Of a stretch of 36,032 nucleotides of DNA, positions 3,182-35,298 are shown in pieces (position 1 is the stretch's first letter; each line of letters opens with the position of its first letter). The notes beneath the pieces were generated by a model, which saw nothing but the letters and a program-made list of their open reading frames with translations, did not search any database and had not been told where the DNA came from. Origin of the DNA: a virus. The translations under genes were made by a program, and so were the position numbers. Where the stretch lies: the IMG/VR virus record IMGVR_UViG_3300023184_000308, positions 1-36,032 of that record, one strand, 5' to 3'.

Positions 3182-3648
3182 TTAGCCTGACTCCCAAAGT
3201 AAGCGATCATGGTTGCGTCAGCCCTGCCAGAGTCCTTGACGCGAGAAAACATTTGCTGGTGTTCTGGATGCAGTTCCATGCAACGGTGTCTGATTGCGTC
3301 CTTACCCTTTGCGCAACCCGTAGCCTTCTGCCACACCAAGGGATTTATGTAGGTGATGGGTACTGAGAAAGACGCGAGTGCGCCTTCAATAATTCCAGCA
3401 GCTCTGCCGAAGGCATACATACTGGCAGTGCCTTGGTTTGGCATTGCGCCTGTGCGTTCTACGAATGCGTGCGTAGGGGCGAATACCTTGACGATGCTTG
3501 CAACGCCCTGCGCAGAGACTTGGCGCTTGTTCTTGCCACCCCTGAGCACTTCTACGATAGGCATATCGACGACCTGCTCAAACTTACCGTCGACATACAA
3601 AGAGAATGCTCCGAGTGCGCCAACATCCACACCCAAGCATCTAATCAT
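3178..3648 (-). CDS. RuvC-like Holliday junction resolvase
   Basis: A 156-aa protein of the RuvC/RNase H-fold resolvase type, expected to cut branched DNA during recombination or before packaging. Acidic catalytic positions are visible: Asp8 in GVDVGALGAFSLY, Glu64 in AFVERTGAMPNQG and Asp144 in SGRADATMIAYF. The GQ-rich stretch and the final RADA motif are typical of phage RuvC-like enzymes. Length is close to that of bacterial RuvC. The start overlaps the end of the HTH gene by 8 bp (AATGATTAG). It sits in the operon with the nuclease and the SSB-like protein, consistent with a recombination role. Confidence 0.82.
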   Translation of the reverse strand: MIRCLGVDVGALGAFSLYVDGKFEQVVDMPIVEVLRGGKNKRQVSAQGVASIVKVFAPTHAFVERTGAMPNQGTASMYAFGRAAGIIEGALASFSVPITYINPLVWQKATGCAKGKDAIRHRCMELHPEHQQMFSRVKDSGRADATMIAYFGSQAK

Positions 3649-3853
3649 TCTTGACCCCTAGAGCCTCGACCCGTGATGCGATCAAGCGATCTGTTGCGGT
3701 TTTGAGTTTCTCTATGCTGGTGATTAGGGGTACGGTATGCCCCGCTATCCAGCGAGACATTTGAGCCTGATCTATGCCAGCCTCTCGGCATATATCGGAC
3801 ATCTTGAACCCCGCCTTCTCAGCGCGTTCTATGATTTCGGTTATGTAGTTCAT
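3641..3853 (-). CDS. Cro/CI-type helix-turn-helix regulator (70 aa)
   Basis: A compact HTH_XRE-like protein. Residues 16-40 form the helix-turn-helix (FKMSDICREAGIDQAQMSRW), followed by a helix typical of Cro-sized regulators. There is no dimerisation or protease domain, so it resembles Cro or an excisionase-like regulator more than a full CI repressor. It is the first gene of the leftward operon, next to the divergent control region, and probably binds the dyads there to set the balance between the two operons and its own expression. Whether the phage is temperate cannot be decided, because no integrase is in the window. Confidence 0.78.
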   Translation of the reverse strand: MNYITEIIERAEKAGFKMSDICREAGIDQAQMSRWIAGHTVPLITSIEKLKTATDRLIASRVEALGVKND

Positions 3854-24799: not shown

Positions 24800-26992
24800 T
24801 TAAACCATTCCTTGTGGGTTGATGGGTTGCTCTGGTGCTGGCTGGGCTTGCGCCATAGCCTGTTGTACCAAAGCACTTTGCTCTTTTACAACCTCTCGGT
24901 TGACATTCTGCTCCGCAACAATTTGCGCGGTGCTCACCTGTGTGTTGTACTTTAACTCAAGTTCGTACTGACGAAGTAGTCTATCTTGGTTCATTTGATC
25001 GCGTCTGAAATCATCATCTCTGATCATCTTCTGGCGCTGTAACTCAAGATCGGCAGCCTTTTTCTGGATGTCTGCCTTAATAGACTCGGCTTGAACCTGC
25101 GCCAAAACCTCTTCTGGAGTTGGCTTTTGTGGTGCTTGTGGTGGCTTCCAGCCATCTGGAATATCCGCAAAGTAGCTTGATGCGTCCTTAAATCCTGAGA
25201 GTTCAACGACCTTCTTTAAGGTGCGCACATACATCTGAGGAGACACCACGGGATTCTCAAGACCGTACTGGTTGATGATGGATTCTTGCTTGGCGAGTAT
25301 CTGCATCAGGGTTGCAATACGCTCATTGGTGTCGCCATTGCCAAGACCGATATTGATGTTGACATCCATCGTGTTGTCCCAAGCGCGTGGGTCAATCTGT
25401 ACCCACTTGTTGCGCAAGCGGATCATGCGTGGCTTGTCTTGATGCGTCGTGACCAAGAACAAAATCGTTTTAAACAGCTCCTTCATGCCTTCAGCCATAA
25501 GACGCGCAGTCAACTCAATGCGTCCTTGGCTGGCGCTTACTGTGGCTGCCACAGCAGCCTTGGTGCTGGACTGCAAAGCATCTGGATTCAATCCCATAGA
25601 TGCCTTGGACATTCCTGTGCGACCTTCCTTGATCTCGTCCAAGTAAGAAAGCACAGGGAAAGCAGCCTGCCCAACAAACGGTGTCACCAACGGCTGCACC
25701 ATATTTGGAGCACGCGCACGAATGATTGCGCCTGTCTCGTTATTCAAAGCGTCGTCAATGTTGACTTGACCTTCGACAATCACGGTGCGCGGATGGATGG
25801 ATTGCGCCAAAGAATCAAGCGTATTGCGCATGACTTCTGACTTGATCTCCTGCAAGTCTCGCGTAATGTCAAATATCGACATCGCCTCAAGTGGTGATGT
25901 GTGGGGTTCTGGATCGCAAGGAAACTCAATAAACGGGATGTACGACGCTGGCAGATTGCGCACCATCTTGTAACCCGAACCCATAAAGCACATCTTGCGC
26001 AACTCAGGGATACCGTCACCGTCATAGTCAACCTTGGCATAGCCCTCGACATAGAGGACACGCATCATCATGGGGTTATTGCTCTCGCCAAAATACTGGT
26101 TATTAGCAAGAGGAGCGCGAGCCAGAGCCTCTTCGTTGTCGTTCAAGTCTGACGAGCCAATGTAGTCCATCACCTCGTCTTCGTCATAGCCCATGCCAAT
26201 CAACTCAGCCACAGTCGCCATCTTGCGGTGACCAATGAACGGTGCATCTTTGAATGACATCGCTTGACGCGAAAGCAATAACTCTTCTGGCGGTAGGCAC
26301 GCCACATGAATACGCTTGTCAACAATCTTGCGCTTGACTTGCACATCATGGATCATTGCCTGTGGCGCTGGTTGACCAGTCATAGGATCGATCTGCATCG
26401 CGCCTTGCATGGCGTCGTCTGGATAGCTCGCAACGATCTGCACATCTGCGCCATCTTCTTGCATTACGATCTGCAATGTCTGGTCATCGAGTCCAGAATA
26501 TTCTTCAATGCGTACAGACTCGGTGTCTTCAACCCAAGCCTTCATAATTCCACATTTACGCACCAAAGCGTCTTTAAATGTGGCGTATGCCACCATAAAA
26601 CCGTTGTTGTCGTTGTTAAAGATGTAATTTGCGTAGTCTGTGGCTTGCTGTGCGCCAGCAACATCTTCTGGACCACGGGGTACATACTCAACGACATTCT
26701 CTGTTGAGAAAAATACCTTCATCAAAGACGGCAACATGGCAGATACGGTGTCGCGCACTTCCATCGCCACGACTTGTGAGCGACCTTCTTCCTCGTTACC
26801 GAAGGGGTCACCACGGTAATACTCAGTACCGCGAGCGCGAATGGGAGACAAGTCGGAGTCGATGTAGCTCACAGCGTCTGTGATCTCAGCGTCTATCATG
26901 GCTTCCAAGTCTGTATCTGTCATGGGTGTAAGTGTCGGGTCAACTTCTGACGCGATGTCTGTGCTTATACCGATTTCTTTATTTAGGTGCAT
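24800..26992 (-). CDS. portal protein, P22-type size class (730 aa)
   Basis: It forms the dodecameric ring at the packaging vertex. The length is close to P22 gp1. The helical N-terminus includes a stretch rich in Asp/Glu, the wing contains SMLPSLMKVFFSTENVVEYVP, and the stem and tunnel loop lie around residues 380-480. The long Gln-rich helical C-terminus (LELQRQKMIRDDDFRRDQM) fits the barrel of P22-type portals. It sits between terminase and scaffold as expected. AAGGG is seven bases before the ATG. Confidence 0.8.
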   Translation of the reverse strand: MHLNKEIGISTDIASEVDPTLTPMTDTDLEAMIDAEITDAVSYIDSDLSPIRARGTEYYRGDPFGNEEEGRSQVVAMEVRDTVSAMLPSLMKVFFSTENVVEYVPRGPEDVAGAQQATDYANYIFNNDNNGFMVAYATFKDALVRKCGIMKAWVEDTESVRIEEYSGLDDQTLQIVMQEDGADVQIVASYPDDAMQGAMQIDPMTGQPAPQAMIHDVQVKRKIVDKRIHVACLPPEELLLSRQAMSFKDAPFIGHRKMATVAELIGMGYDEDEVMDYIGSSDLNDNEEALARAPLANNQYFGESNNPMMMRVLYVEGYAKVDYDGDGIPELRKMCFMGSGYKMVRNLPASYIPFIEFPCDPEPHTSPLEAMSIFDITRDLQEIKSEVMRNTLDSLAQSIHPRTVIVEGQVNIDDALNNETGAIIRARAPNMVQPLVTPFVGQAAFPVLSYLDEIKEGRTGMSKASMGLNPDALQSSTKAAVAATVSASQGRIELTARLMAEGMKELFKTILFLVTTHQDKPRMIRLRNKWVQIDPRAWDNTMDVNINIGLGNGDTNERIATLMQILAKQESIINQYGLENPVVSPQMYVRTLKKVVELSGFKDASSYFADIPDGWKPPQAPQKPTPEEVLAQVQAESIKADIQKKAADLELQRQKMIRDDDFRRDQMNQDRLLRQYELELKYNTQVSTAQIVAEQNVNREVVKEQSALVQQAMAQAQPAPEQPINPQGMV

Positions 26993-29885: not shown

Positions 29886-31430
29886 TTATGCAACCCTAGA
29901 GAGGTTTCTACGCAACGGCTGAGACCACTTCTGCGATGCGTTTGCACCGAATGCACCGATAGCTGCTTCAGATGCAAATGTCAGCACAAATGAATCTGCC
30001 TTGTCGGGGGACTTCAAGCCACGCTTTCGGATGTCGTCCTTGCCCTCGACTTGAATCTTTCCAGAGCTGCTAAAGAAGTACCTCACAGTCGCAAGTTCTG
30101 CCACAAGTTCTTCGTCTGCGGGGATACGACAATCACGCGCCTCGAACCACGCCTTCGCCTTGTACCAAAGCTCTGCGCGTAGATTCCTGTAAGTCGTACC
30201 CATCGCGGGGGACTCTGAAACATTGATGCCTCGAGCTGGAAGTCCGAGTTCTCGTAGACGATCAACTACGCCAGCACCAAGACCAATCGAGTCCACCATA
30301 ATCTCGTGGGGACGCTGACTAGGTGGTAGAGCTTCCCACTCTGCGACGACAGCGCCAGTCAATTGCATCAAGTCCAAGTTTTTCCAAATCTTTGTGGGTT
30401 CGATGAGCGCGTTGCCTTGTCTCTTCGAGAGTGCAGACCTGTCACCACCAAAGCGTGCGACATCCAAGCCCCAGATCAGCTTGGCGTGCTGACTTGTCTC
30501 TACATCGCGGTGCTTTGCCAGTTCCAGCAACTCCATCGGGATGATCGTGTCGTCGTCTGCCCTTGGAAACTCGCCAAGGACGCGGATACGGTAGGCATTG
30601 GATTCCTCACCGTAGCGCGACTTCATCTCTTCGACATACGCATCTGAGACCCTTGGAGAGTCAACGCAAGAGACTTTCATCGTCACCCAGTCGTTGGCGA
30701 GTCGGTTCTGGGTGTCGTAAAAGAATCCGCTAGAGCGTACAGGGTTGCCCAGTAGAAGGGTCACGGCATTGTGTCCAGACATCGAACCAGCAGCAGCTTC
30801 AAACACTTGCTCTGGGATACCCGACGCCTCGTCAGCCACCAGCATCACATTCTCTGAGTGGACACCTTGCAGGGCTTCTGGTTGCTCTGCCCTCGATGTC
30901 CTTGCGGACACGAAAGCCTCTGTCGCTGCTTCCTTGACCTCGATACGGTCTTGCTTGACTTCGAGCATCTCTCTAAGAGTCTCAGGTAACTCTTTGACCC
31001 AACGCTTTAGTTCCGCAAAGAGCGCGTCGTATAGCTGGCTGGATGTGGGGGCTGTTACCACCACCTTGACGGGGTAACGCAAGAGCAGATACCAGATGAT
31101 CGCCCAGCTCGCTGCTGTGGACTTGCCTACGCCATGACCTGATCTGACAGATATGCGTCGGTTTCCCTTGGCGATGTGGGTGAGGAAAGTCTCTTGCCAA
31201 GTGTCGGGGTTAGCGTTTAAGACTTCCTTGACAAAGAGGACTGGATTGTTCTTGTAGCGTATGGTGAACGCAACAAAGGGATTCTTTGAGAGTTCGTCTT
31301 GCTTCTTGTCGTGGATGCGGTCTAGCGTCTCCTTGACCTGTGGGTGTAGTTTCTTTTTTACTGGTGCAGTTGATTCTGTCGTCATGTCGGGATTGTGCCA
31401 CCAAGATGGGTTGTTGGTGACTCCGTTCAT
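29886..31430 (-). CDS. terL: terminase large subunit (514 aa)
   Basis: The DNA-packaging motor and nuclease. The ATPase half shows Walker A SGHGVGKST (97-105), Walker B VMLVADEAS (195-203, Asp200/Glu201) and the coupling segment LLLGNP. The RNase H-like nuclease half shows GLDVARFGGD (Asp323), IMVDSIGLGAG (Asp380) and SPDKADSFVL (Asp476/Asp479). The first ATG at 31430 has no close SD. An ATG 15 codons in (31385) is the alternative start. Unusually, it is separated from the small subunit gene by 476 non-coding bases. Confidence 0.92.
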   Translation of the reverse strand: MNGVTNNPSWWHNPDMTTESTAPVKKKLHPQVKETLDRIHDKKQDELSKNPFVAFTIRYKNNPVLFVKEVLNANPDTWQETFLTHIAKGNRRISVRSGHGVGKSTAASWAIIWYLLLRYPVKVVVTAPTSSQLYDALFAELKRWVKELPETLREMLEVKQDRIEVKEAATEAFVSARTSRAEQPEALQGVHSENVMLVADEASGIPEQVFEAAAGSMSGHNAVTLLLGNPVRSSGFFYDTQNRLANDWVTMKVSCVDSPRVSDAYVEEMKSRYGEESNAYRIRVLGEFPRADDDTIIPMELLELAKHRDVETSQHAKLIWGLDVARFGGDRSALSKRQGNALIEPTKIWKNLDLMQLTGAVVAEWEALPPSQRPHEIMVDSIGLGAGVVDRLRELGLPARGINVSESPAMGTTYRNLRAELWYKAKAWFEARDCRIPADEELVAELATVRYFFSSSGKIQVEGKDDIRKRGLKSPDKADSFVLTFASEAAIGAFGANASQKWSQPLRRNLSRVA

Positions 31431-31668
31431 TTTTGAGCGTAGGCTCCGACGGAATAGCGGAGATAGAACAATATTCGATGGCGTCTTTCTGTGCTGTGTG
31501 CATAGCGACTACCTTTCACCAACACGGCTGGGGACTGTCAGGGCATATTCTTACCTGAGAAACCCAGTATTACCTGCAATGCAATCAATCCCCATGCGTG
31601 TTGATACGCAAGTCAAGTATATGAGATTTTTTATTTTTTATTTTTTTTGTGGGAGTGTGGTGCTGTGT

Positions 31669-31690
31669 GGGTGGGAGTGTGGGGGGTGGG
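31669..31690 (+). other. G-quadruplex motif
   Basis: GGG, T, GGG, AGTGT, GGGGGG, T, GGG satisfies the G3+N1-7 four-run rule on the plus strand. Further G runs lie on each side. It sits between the T-tracts and the DnaA boxes. Formation in the cell is not shown. Confidence 0.55.
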
Positions 31691-31726
31691 TTCGGTATCT
31701 GTCGGGGTGCAGTTTCAGCCCACCCC
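31683..31726. repeat. inverted repeat GGGGTGGG / CCCACCCC
   Basis: Exact 8-bp arms at 31683-31690 and 31719-31726 (10 bp with a G-T and a T-A pair) enclose 28 bases. No T-run follows on either strand, so it is not a simple terminator. Its place beside terL allows a packaging-recognition role. Confidence 0.5.
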
Positions 31727-31842
31727 GTCGCGCAGAGCGAAGGGGGGGTAAACCCGAATGATGTGGCAGATAACAGTCAGAAATGAATACTATCTGCTTC
31801 ACCTAGTTTACACTATGTTCATTATGTAAAGTTATTTTGCTG

Positions 31843-31930
31843 TTATCCACAGGTTTGTAAGCGTTTTTGTGGATAACTTCGCCAGTTTCCACGCAAATGT
31901 GGATAATTAGGACAACTTGTCTGTGGATAC
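31843..31930. other. cluster of four DnaA boxes, candidate replication origin
   Basis: TTATCCACA at 31843-31851 (plus) and TGTGGATAA at 31868-31876 and 31898-31906 (the same box on the minus strand) are exact matches to the high-affinity DnaA box. A fourth, TGTGGATAC at 31922-31930, differs by one base and lies in the end of the terS gene. Spacing is 24-30 bp and the intergenic part is AT-rich. This arrangement resembles bacterial origins and implies host DnaA use. Confidence 0.7.
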
Positions 31931-32338
31931 ATCTTCGACAACCTCGATCCGACGCAACGCATCGAGCCTCATGCCAGACAGATTTACCTGCACCGAAGGC
32001 ATTTTGTTCTGCGCATAGGCTGCTGGATTCCATCTTTCAGCCACCCATTGACGAGTTTGCACCCGTAATCTAGCCTTTTGTACCTCTTCCACATCTGTTT
32101 CGTCAGCAATTAGTATGCTTTCTGCTACCATGTCGTCTGCCGCCTTCGCGCGCGCACGCGAGGAGAGACCTTCGTTCTCTGGTTTATTGAGCCAATCTTC
32201 GAGCGCAACACGACCCACACCAAGCGCGTAACAGATGCGAGCAATCGGCTGTCCAGCCTCAAGCATCGACACGATATGTTCTTTGGGCAAAGAATCGAGT
32301 GCAGCCAAGTCAGACTTGCGTTTTGGTCTTCCAGCCAT
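31907..32338 (-). CDS. terS: terminase small subunit (143 aa)
   Basis: An N-terminal helix-turn-helix (ARICYALGVGRVALEDWLN) would recognise the packaging site. The central acidic helix supports oligomer formation, and RQWVAERWNPAAY is a segment typical of phage small terminases. It is followed by a basic, strand-rich C-terminus. GGAGG is eight bases before the ATG, inside the 18-codon frame that ends at TAAATG. It is encoded upstream of the large subunit in the same direction. Confidence 0.75.
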   Translation of the reverse strand: MAGRPKRKSDLAALDSLPKEHIVSMLEAGQPIARICYALGVGRVALEDWLNKPENEGLSSRARAKAADDMVAESILIADETDVEEVQKARLRVQTRQWVAERWNPAAYAQNKMPSVQVNLSGMRLDALRRIEVVEDVSTDKLS

Positions 32339-32395: not shown

Positions 32396-33085
32396 CTAAA
32401 TCTCCTCCAAAGCCCGATTAGCCGTATTTTTGCCCATCTTGCTGGTGTCAAACACCTTCGGCAACGACGAAGCCTCCAGTTCGTCGGACTTCATGTCATC
32501 CAATCCTGTCGCACCACCCTCTGGAAATTCTTTAGCGTCCTTGTCCAACCTGACAAGTGCTGCACAAGGCATTAGCGCCTTGATCTTCATGGTCTCCTTG
32601 ATGACTGGAGACTCCATGATCAACTCCAGCTCTTCCATCGTCCAGATGTGTCTGTTCTGCACATCTGGTCTGAACTGTTGGTACAGCGTCGCGTCGTGAT
32701 GATTTCCAACCACCACCATGACCGACCCGTCTTGCATCTCATGCTCCACAACATTGATTTCTGGCATCTCAGACACACCGTTCTCAACAGCCCAAGCCTC
32801 CAACGCACCGTAAGCCTTGACCATCCCACCGACAGCTCTGTCCAACTTCACCTCATCCCTTGACCTTGACGCATCGAACACTCTCTCAGCCTGTCGCCAC
32901 ACTTTGATCCGAAACTCTGAGTCCACCAACTCAATCAACCTGTTAATACCCCAACGCTTTTCATGGTCTCTCTTCACCACAGACAGCTCCACTAACCTCG
33001 AATTCATAAATACTTCAAAAGTATTCATCGGGAATTCTGGCTGTTTTAGACCACCAAGAACTTTATTCAAACTCTTCTTACCCAT
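32396..33085 (-). CDS. conserved phage protein upstream of terS (229 aa), unknown
   Basis: A soluble protein with a helical first half (KRDHEKRWGINRLIELVDSEF) and a second half that contains VVVGNHHDATLYQQFRPDVQ and HIWTMEELE. No catalytic motif is clear. It lies between the primase-helicase and terminase genes and follows a region of short repeats. Role unknown. A replication or packaging accessory is plausible from position only. Confidence 0.65.
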   Translation of the reverse strand: MGKKSLNKVLGGLKQPEFPMNTFEVFMNSRLVELSVVKRDHEKRWGINRLIELVDSEFRIKVWRQAERVFDASRSRDEVKLDRAVGGMVKAYGALEAWAVENGVSEMPEINVVEHEMQDGSVMVVVGNHHDATLYQQFRPDVQNRHIWTMEELELIMESPVIKETMKIKALMPCAALVRLDKDAKEFPEGGATGLDDMKSDELEASSLPKVFDTSKMGKNTANRALEEI

Positions 33086-33132: not shown

Positions 33133-33233
33133 GGACAGATGGTGTGTATACATACACACACCATCCATCTGTCCACCTTTTTGTGGTGGACAAATGCATT
33201 TTTCGTTGTCCCTATTTGTCCCCCCATTTGTCC
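33133..33233. repeat. iteron-like GGACA(A/G)AT repeat cluster
   Basis: Copies of GGACAGAT or GGACAAAT occur on both strands: 33133-33140 (+), 33167-33174 (-), 33188-33195 (+), 33214-33221 (-) and 33226-33233 (-). A degenerate copy lies at 33205-33211. The first two flank a TGTGTAT-AC-ATACACA palindrome (33142-33157), forming a large interrupted dyad. The region lies directly after the primase-helicase gene and is a candidate origin, operator or replication-protein binding site. Confidence 0.6.
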
Positions 33234-33246
33234 CTGTCCCCCCCCA

Positions 33247-35298
33247 TCATTTCTTCACCAAAGCGACGACAGAATTGACCTGTTTTGCGTCCTCTTTTTC
33301 CTCAAACACAGCCCAGCACATATCATCATAAATTACTACTTTTTCCATTTCCACCAAGTCCAACTTGACCCGTTGCCAAGCCTTTTTTAGCGTATCTGGC
33401 GACACATCGCTACCGATTCGAGCCTTAAATTCAGACCTCCATTGCTCAATCTTTATGCACTTATTGCGCATTCCGTTGATGGTTTGCATCTCCCCAAACT
33501 TGGCAATTGCTTCATGAAGCGAGTTCAAAGCGAGCTTCTGGTTCGTCCCTTTGCCCTTCTTTTCTGGTGGTTTCATGGACTCTTTTCTGTCGTTTATGGC
33601 TTGATCGTCAGACTCCACCGCCAGACTGGAAGTGCCAGACTCAAAGTCCACTACACCACCAGAAGTGGTGCTTACCTCGACCATCTTGAACCCGATGCGC
33701 TGCCCGTCTTCCCCGTCCTTTTGTTTGCTTATGTGGAGGATTCCTTTTGGCGGTTGAGCGCCTTCGATCCTGATAATCTCCAGCTCTGTGTCTACTGCTC
33801 CGAGCAGGGAAGAGTGACCGCGCAGACCTTTGGTTGCGTCCTTACCAGCGTGGTGAACTACTAGCAAGCCACACTCATACCGTCCTTGTATAGCGCCAGC
33901 AGCAGTAATGAATGCACCCATGTCTTCACTTGCGTTCTCGTTACCACCGCCAAACGCTCTAGCCAAGGTGTCAATGATGATCAGCTCGAAGTTGATCTCG
34001 TTGATTGCCTTCAAGTCATCTATTGCGTTAACTAAGTCTTGCAGGTCTGTCTTACTTGATCTGAGATTGACCTGCCGTCTTAGGAAATAGACTGGCGCTC
34101 CAACTGGCGTGCTGTGATGCGTCTTCAGCGCCTTGATCCTTGACCCGATACCGCCATGACCCTCACCAGCGATGTATAGGACTGCACCTTGCTTCGTGAT
34201 CTGGTTGCCGAGGAATGCTCTGCCTGTGGCGATGCACTCTGCAATGTCCAAGGCAATGAATGACTTAAAACTGGCTGGAGGTGCGTATAAAGCAACGAAT
34301 GATCGTTGCGGTATGACTCCTTGCACTAACCACTCGACAGGTTCGTCCTCGATGCTGTCCCACGCTTCGAGCTTGAATCCTTCGCGTTGTAGTGGTACTT
34401 GTGGCAACTCCAACTCTTCCATTACTGGTGTCTCAGCAACGCCAATCAATCTTGCAGGAGTCGTTACATCTGACTCACTTTGTATTGCTTGCGTGGCTTT
34501 TGTCAGGTCAACCAGCCTGTCCTTGTCACCGCCATACTTGTGGACAAACTCGTATGCGTCCTCCTTGATCTCTTGTAACCCAAGGTCTATTACTCGGATA
34601 CTTTTTGTAACCGACTTGAGAGCTGCGACTGCCTTCCTTGCGTACTCCCAGCCCACCGTGTCGTTGTCAGGGACTATGGCGATGGTGAGTCCTACTAAGT
34701 GCTTGACCACATCTTCTGGGAAGCTGCTTGCACCGTTGTGCGTACAGGTTGCCACCACACCGATAGTCTTTAAAGCGTCTGCTGCCTTCTCGCCTTCGCA
34801 CAAGAAGACTGTGCGTCCTGTCTTTCTTGCAAAGTCCACCTCTGGTAAGTTGTAGGGGACGATGTTCGCACCAGTCATGGATGCGTGTCTGCGTCCCTGC
34901 TCGTCCACTCTGAACTGCTTATAGGTCTTTCCCTTGGCGTCGAAGGTCTTGTATCTCTGCTTGATGTGCTGGGTGACGCCATCCTCATCGGTGTAGTGCC
35001 ATTCCTGCTCGAGCACAGGGTCTTGCTTTTGTATTGGCTTGAGTTGCGTTAAGAAGTCTGTTGGATTGGGTAAGTCTGGCAGCAACCCAAAGTCCCTGAC
35101 TGCTTGGAATACCGAGTCTTGAGAGCACCCACCGTAGCACTTGAATAACGGTTTGCCTTCGTCGTTCTCTGTGACGCATAGAGATGGATTCCTGTCCCCG
35201 TTACCCTGCCCGTGTGAGCTCACAGGACAGCTCGCCATCCATTGCCCGTTCACCTTCTTTGCGTTGCCAAGCGCTTGCGCTATTTGTTCGGCTTGCAT
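33247..35298 (-). CDS. primase-helicase fusion (683 aa)
   Basis: The main replication enzyme. The N-terminal zinc-binding part has C24, H29, C54 and C58 (CPVSSH and CYGGC). The TOPRIM primase core has FLCEGEKAADAL (165-176) and VPDNDT (209-214). The RepA/RecA-like helicase domain has Walker A YAPPASFKSF (338-347), Walker B LIIIDTLAR (439-447), VHHAGKD (481-487) and GLRGHSSL (491-498). The C-terminal 120 residues are an additional winged-helix-like region. The start has only a weak purine-rich ribosome site. It would unwind and prime the phage DNA. Confidence 0.85.
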   Translation of the reverse strand: MQAEQIAQALGNAKKVNGQWMASCPVSSHGQGNGDRNPSLCVTENDEGKPLFKCYGGCSQDSVFQAVRDFGLLPDLPNPTDFLTQLKPIQKQDPVLEQEWHYTDEDGVTQHIKQRYKTFDAKGKTYKQFRVDEQGRRHASMTGANIVPYNLPEVDFARKTGRTVFLCEGEKAADALKTIGVVATCTHNGASSFPEDVVKHLVGLTIAIVPDNDTVGWEYARKAVAALKSVTKSIRVIDLGLQEIKEDAYEFVHKYGGDKDRLVDLTKATQAIQSESDVTTPARLIGVAETPVMEELELPQVPLQREGFKLEAWDSIEDEPVEWLVQGVIPQRSFVALYAPPASFKSFIALDIAECIATGRAFLGNQITKQGAVLYIAGEGHGGIGSRIKALKTHHSTPVGAPVYFLRRQVNLRSSKTDLQDLVNAIDDLKAINEINFELIIIDTLARAFGGGNENASEDMGAFITAAGAIQGRYECGLLVVHHAGKDATKGLRGHSSLLGAVDTELEIIRIEGAQPPKGILHISKQKDGEDGQRIGFKMVEVSTTSGGVVDFESGTSSLAVESDDQAINDRKESMKPPEKKGKGTNQKLALNSLHEAIAKFGEMQTINGMRNKCIKIEQWRSEFKARIGSDVSPDTLKKAWQRVKLDLVEMEKVVIYDDMCWAVFEEKEDAKQVNSVVALVKK

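Follow-up and report, generated by a model that had tools for sequence, protein, structure and literature searches.

DnaA boxes and a dif-like Xer site are spatially coupled in a conserved module of divergent phages, a candidate replication-and-resolution locus

The gap between the terminase genes

The DNA analysed here (the window) is a complete virus record of 36,032 bases, IMGVR_UViG_3300023184_000308. A related contig, L033, holds the two window ends 28 nt apart, indicating that the window is a nearly complete genome that can be joined into a circle; the record ends (positions 1 and 36032) fall inside a cytosine methyltransferase gene. The region of interest lies between the genes for the small and large terminase subunits, where a cluster of DnaA boxes adjoins a 28-bp element resembling the bacterial dif site. 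We refer to boxes and element together as the module. The features are as follows.

29886..31430, minus strand: terL, terminase large subunit (phrog_2, 1e-43)
31618..31647: A/T tract, candidate unwinding element
31716..31748, minus strand: GC-rich imperfect hairpin beginning with a C run
31805..31832, plus strand: dif-like Xer core site, 28 bp in an 11-6-11 layout, AGTTTACACTA-TGTTCA-TTATGTAAAGT; XerC-like half 31805-31815, centre 31816-31821, XerD-like half 31822-31832, which faces the boxes
31843..31851, plus strand: DnaA box, exact TTATCCACA; nearest to the dif-like site, 10 bp away
31868..31876, minus strand: DnaA box, exact TTATCCACA
31898..31906, minus strand: DnaA box, exact TTATCCACA, abutting the terS stop codon
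31922..31930, minus strand: box 4, DnaA-like, one mismatch (GTATCCACA), inside the 3′ end of terS
31907..32338, minus strand: terS, terminase small subunit (phrog_1482, 4e-14; PF20901, 3e-13)
32396..33085, minus strand: 229-aa protein, function not assigned
33247..35298, minus strand: primase-helicase (phrog_906, phrog_239, PF13481)

The gap proper spans 31431-31906; the true start of terL may lie slightly later, since the terL alignments of relatives mostly begin at residue 12. Window-like phages share the gene order primase-helicase, 229-aa protein, terS, module, terL. The 229-aa protein, often encoded upstream of the module, gave a 42-member alignment with 11 invariant residues and has a predicted helical core of moderate confidence. 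It resembles phage proteins only, nearly all of them uncharacterised and one named terminase small subunit; searches of solved-structure profiles, PHROGs and folds returned nothing informative and no known fold.

Several further elements were noted. The GC-rich hairpin occurs in the relatives inspected, and its fold is weak (z -1.82). An optional element upstream of terL, at about 31480-31580 on the minus strand, consists of a hypervariable insert enclosed by a conserved outer stem (CAACACGCATGGGGATTG ... CAGTCCCCAGCCGTGTTGGTG) and exists in 14 distinct versions of 67-113 nt; TGAGGA/TCCTCA replaces TGGGGA/TCCCCA in some, a compensatory change, and the insert of L055 looks like the T arm of a tmRNA. 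No Rfam family reached its gathering score in the window, optional element included, and the three Rfam hits in the gap were all below cut-offs, with E up to 5. Elsewhere in the window, a long inverted repeat around TGTGTGTATACATACACACA (33134-33175) was seen by eye between the primase-helicase and 229-aa genes, a phosphoadenosine phosphosulfate reductase gene (1950-2804; phrog_424, 1.5e-46) represents an auxiliary metabolic gene, and no tRNAs were found.

A conserved cluster of DnaA boxes

The original prediction was of a host-DnaA-dependent origin, based on three exact boxes and one single-mismatch box at 24-30-bp spacing. All four are present at 31843, 31868, 31898 and 31922, their starts 25, 30 and 24 bp apart. 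The first three are the only exact copies of TTATCCACA in the window, where 0.24 would be expected, placing the observed three far above chance; none of 100 shuffles reached three, and exact boxes never exceeded one per 80 bp in 300 Markov genomes. Sites with at most one mismatch number 28 across the window against 32.5 expected and are thus not enriched overall, so that the signal is the exact cluster. The description of the cluster as non-coding holds for three boxes; the fourth lies within terS (31907-32338), and one of the four is therefore in coding sequence.

Two further sequence properties bear on the idea of an origin. The A/T tract at 31618 has a GC content of 0.07, the lowest of any 30-mer in the whole window. 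Although it falls in the same gap, it stands some 200 bp away from the closest box; relatives, too, have A-rich tracts upstream of terL. GC skew lends the origin no support, as it shows no sign change at the gap.

A terL search of viral contigs returned at least 80 relatives; in 70 of them, the window not counted, both terS and terL were present. The remaining ten, in which no terS was detected, do not enter the gap counts; most are contigs that start in or near the gap. Among the matches listed, 67 of the 70 syntenic relatives keep an exact box in the gap, and 68 have at least two copies of TTRTNCACA; L045 and L073 have a single TTRTNCACA each. In G008 there is no exact box. Exact boxes are concentrated in the gaps, whose 30.4 kb hold 112, against 13 in the 812 kb outside (among the matches listed). 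These loci are not independent: the 71 gaps among the matches listed comprise 61 distinct sequences, or about 9.7 effective ones at 85% identity.

Aligning the 61 distinct gaps among the matches listed showed how each box place varies. The place at 31843 holds TTATCCACA in 44 of them and another DnaA-like 9-mer in most others. At 31868, TTATCCACA and TTATGCACA occur in 16 gaps each (32/61 together), the box being lost or replaced in the rest, while 31898 carries TTATCCACA in 27 and TTGTCCACA in 21; at 31922, exact TTATCCACA is found in 8. The variants at aligned boxes (TTATCCACA, TTATGCACA, TTGTCCACA, TTATACACA, TTACGCACA and the like) are largely DnaA-like, and such changes are ones that DnaA tolerates.

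A dif-like site beside the boxes

Conservation within the gap peaks outside the boxes, in a 16-bp core at 31817-31832. This core belongs to a dif-like site, better conserved than the boxes, that the original prediction did not contain. We built a matrix from 16 published dif sites, with sequences taken from PMC3025954 and PMC2731167. With this matrix the window site scores 23.7 and ranks first, the best non-overlapping place reaching 6.5 and the maximum over 40 same-size Markov genomes 17.0. An earlier three-seed matrix separated less clearly (17.9 for the window versus up to 17.0 in 12 Markov genomes) and placed the site first in 21 of 24 relatives and, in two more, the same site on the other strand; L077 has no match to the regular expression of the site and a weak top hit of 11.8. 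Among the 18 near-full-length module phages described below, the 16-bp core is single-copy in 16 at up to one mismatch, the other two forming a diverged group.

The window site is identical at 21 of 28 positions to the best published dif, that of Rhodoferax ferrireducens (PMC2731167); other module sites reach up to 24 of 28 against the same sequence. Its XerD-like half equals the Bordetella pertussis half in the window and the Rhodoferax half in many other sites, which hints at hosts in the Burkholderiales. The centres are of the TGTCCA, TGTTCA and CGTCCA types, as against TGTATA in Rhodoferax dif (PMC2731167), and the dif of the actual host may differ. Sequence evidence is strong for the boxes and, by layout and rank, for a dif-type XerCD core site at 31805-31832, on which XerC and XerD may act.

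Coupling of boxes and dif-like site

We scanned viral contigs for ACTTWACATAATGNAC and, together with the earlier loci, obtained at least 117 places, many of them from close relatives. Selection by this pattern fixes the XerD half and most of the centre in advance, so that free tests are confined to the XerC half, to palindromy and to the boxes. Among the matches listed, at least one TTRTNCACA occurs no more than 200 bp away on the XerD side at 94 of 117 places; 23 lack boxes on both sides, and at none are boxes confined to the other side. The XerC half, which lies outside the search pattern, has a median score of 4.1 with boxes versus -6.6 without (p 2.6e-7, among the distinct sites listed); 7-9 of the 11 arm positions are paired in 95/117 places with boxes and in 3/22 without (among the matches listed). 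The poor XerC halves and arm pairing of the boxless sites suggest that the 23 boxless places are probably mostly chance matches. Clustering at 70% identity left at least 35 clusters, in which boxes prefer offsets near -98, -75, -60 and -19 from the site.

A reverse test was independent of ACTTWACATAATGNAC: 120 viral contigs, among the matches listed, were chosen only for a convergent pair of DnaA boxes. A dif-like site scoring at least 17 lies within 300 bp in 21 of these 120, compared with none of 302 control stretches, and in 16 of 120 the score is at least 20 (both among the matches listed). Every one of the 21 loci, which form 11 clusters among the matches listed, carries boxes on the XerD side; in nine they are found on the other side too. 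For the remaining 99 of the 120 listed pairs, no dif-like site within 300 bp reaches a score of 17, indicating that DnaA-box pairs in phages are commoner than the module. Collectively, these results demonstrate that the boxes and the dif-like site are both real and conserved, and that divergent phages keep them in spatial association.

The arm pairing seen in 95/117 of the matches listed makes the element near-palindromic, as expected if it were the operator of a dimeric protein or a phage initiator site, its likeness to dif being convergent and the boxes still forming an origin; the conserved 229-aa protein of no known fold, a frequent companion of the module, might be a candidate binder. Both halves and the 11-6-11 layout nevertheless score as dif, and the XerD half TTATGT[A/T]AAGT is that of Bordetella and Rhodoferax. 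We consider an operator unlikely.

Initiators and the role of the boxes

We assembled by hand 18 near-full-length module phages, the window included, from contigs of more than 32 kb bearing the module. The primase-helicase ATPase PF13481 occurs in all 18. The O-like initiator phrog_1032 and the DnaA C-terminal domain Bac_DnaA_C were each found in none of the 18, the phage C72C1 serving as positive control for both, and the claim that the window has no visible initiator is upheld for these two families. The PolA-type polymerase DNA_pol_A was likewise found in 0/18, as were tyrosine integrase, serine resolvase and ParB. Separately, the annotation 'dnaa protein helix-turn-helix' is attached to genes of two Manatee Spring phages.

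The control phage is itself informative. C72C1 (L210, OQ984150.1), whose terL is 50% identical to that of the window, keeps a dif-like site in the stretch separating terS from terL; this site scores 15.1 and has the centre CGTCCA. The phage lacks a box cluster and PF13481 and encodes an O-like initiator (phrog_1032, 2.2e-19). This pattern fits an origin role for the boxes better than an accessory one at the Xer site; it is one case, and the phage also encodes a DnaA C-terminal DNA-binding domain (26387-26581; PF08299, 1.1e-21).

The same phage bears on the possibility that the boxes are accessory sequences, DnaA wrapping the DNA to control XerCD while replication starts elsewhere. The last box stands at a preferred spacing from the XerD half, and the plasmid sites cer and psi require accessory proteins according to PMC5357621; the accessory proteins known for cer are ArgR and PepA, not DnaA (PMC5357621), and C72C1 retains a dif-like site in the same place without a box cluster. 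We regard an accessory role as rather improbable.

The dif-like site could alternatively be an attP at which host XerCD inserts the phage into the chromosomal dif, as with CTXphi and other integrative mobile elements exploiting Xer (IMEX), the boxes again being an origin. The absence of tyrosine integrase and serine resolvase from all 18 module phages, the identity of up to 24 of 28 positions to bacterial dif and a weak repressor-like match at 3641-3853 of the window would suit such a lifestyle. However, the module pattern occurs in none of the contigs of 84,980 species genomes, whose sampling may miss the hosts, a search of the same genome contigs with the window terL gave no match, and the TGTNCA-type centre does not match the TGTATA found in the closest dif. 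Integration at dif is in our judgement a doubtful account of the site.

Genomic context of the module

Most module loci have terminase genes nearby, in varied arrangements. In L211 the module is inverted relative to terS and terL, which are 32% and 76% identical, respectively, to those of the window; in the L240 type it is also inverted and terL is about 32% identical; in the L310 type it is followed by a small gene and by a terL of a different kind. In 7 of the 21 box-pair loci, among the matches listed, the 229-aa protein was detected, unlike terS and terL; these loci may be fragments or have other terminases. The inversions and unlike terminases indicate that the module goes with more than one terminase and more than one orientation.

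These arrangements weigh on the proposal that the stretch is a packaging site (pac, cos or a terminal repeat) read by TerS, with the TTATCCACA repeats as TerS sites. The adjacency of terS and terL in most loci invites it, as does phage phiM5, whose direct terminal repeat ends just before terL. Against this, the module is inverted in L211 despite the 76% identical terL and occurs beside unlike terminases, the repeats vary as DnaA boxes do, and phiM5 has no such cluster in the parts examined. Contig ends also cluster in a C-rich tract upstream of terL: L023, L030, L037, L061, L065 and L066 begin in this tract 33-61 bases before the terL match, and other contigs end 58-339 bases past the start of the dif-like core. 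Such ends in the C-rich tract could be assembly breaks or virion ends. The breaks sit in low-complexity sequence, and we dropped them as a sign of virion ends because they fall at different places within the C-rich sequence. We judge a packaging site very unlikely. DnaA control of a late terL promoter, or titration of host DnaA, is more improbable still: the boxes do lie upstream of terL and DnaA is a known regulator, but their orientation to terL is not conserved, four boxes would presumably be few beside the host's own, and the coupled dif-like site would be left unexplained.

Discussion

The conservation of the boxes, their DnaA-like variation and the absence of the O-like initiator and the DnaA domain from the 18 module phages make a host-DnaA origin the best reading of the boxes. 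The original prediction of such an origin is partly supported by these observations, finds no support in GC skew, and was incomplete in having missed the dif-like site. We propose, at about even odds, that the gap is a compact replication-and-resolution module in which a host-DnaA origin is coupled to a host-XerCD site. Host DnaA would bind the box cluster and open nearby A/T-rich DNA, for which the tract at 31618 is a candidate; the phage primase-helicase, or host DnaB, together with the host polymerase would then copy the genome as a circle. Host XerC and XerD would bind the adjacent 28-bp site and either turn genome dimers into monomers or circularise terminally redundant DNA. DnaA binding, origin firing and XerCD recombination with its purpose are all deduced here from sequence patterns.

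A further and more tentative possibility is that the module is a mobile cassette that starts and resolves replication, spread through tailed phages of several terminase types, with a host-DnaA origin beside an Xer site, unidirectional theta replication and XerCD resolving or circularising the product.

Both parts of the module have precedents, and DnaA-box phage origins and Xer sites in phages and plasmids are each already known. The Plasmaviridae (Acholeplasma phage L2) have two ori sites, each a DnaA box with AT-rich 6-mer repeats (PMC12662186), and a DnaA-box origin was predicted for Pseudomonas phage 254 (PMC11512268). Bacterial oriC and the Plasmaviridae origins share with the gap their DnaA boxes, A/T-rich DNA and reliance on the host replisome, whereas here a tailed phage has its own primase-helicase and four boxes at conserved spacing by a dif-like site.

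Xer core sites on mobile replicons are likewise familiar from plasmid cer and psi and from Acinetobacter pdif, which neighbour ArgR or ArcA sites, whereas the phage-borne site neighbours DnaA boxes. Acinetobacter plasmid stretches match the L240 module over the dif-like element, and two of the three examined share the centre CGTCCA, which is found in 19 of 117 phage sites among the matches listed. We take these plasmid stretches to be pdif sites. In phage P1, lox lies near pac, and Cre-lox circularises terminally redundant DNA; that arrangement likewise places a recombination site near packaging genes, but P1 encodes Cre, whereas here the recombinase would be the host's. The IMEX phages CTXphi, VGJphi and TLCphi (PMC5357621) and the dif-integrating microviruses (a gokushovirus is reported) resemble the module phages in having a dif-like site, no integrase and a presumed reliance on host XerCD; the present phages differ from the IMEX in being double-stranded and tailed, with a box cluster attached to the site and no integrated copy in 84,980 species genomes. 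Pseudoalteromonas chromids offer a further parallel, with dif2 near ori2 linked to unidirectional replication (PMC7858055). There the two sites are 4-27 kb apart and replication is RepA-driven, compared with 10 bp and DnaA boxes here.

A BLAST search of the module against named phages gave short matches only, the best in Streptomyces phages, and a plasmid search gave short weak matches besides the Acinetobacter Xer-like sites. The Streptomyces phages BoomerJR, Stanimal and Yaboi (about 119 kb) have a 42-base match to the two-box part (88.6%, E 8e-4) in unannotated DNA, possibly a DnaA-box cluster in actinophages. We found no report of a joined DnaA-box and Xer module in phages in the open-access literature searched.

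If the proposed roles hold, the module would serve to pinpoint replication origins by sequence in many uncultured phages and would link the replication of these phages to the activity of host DnaA and Xer proteins; its dif-like site may point to host lineages. It would also raise the question of whether dif beside an origin means unidirectional replication, as reported for the Pseudoalteromonas chromids (PMC7858055). Should the mobile cassette exist as well, replication of the circle would start and end at almost one place, and phages seemingly without integrase or partition genes would possess a plasmid-like replicon core.
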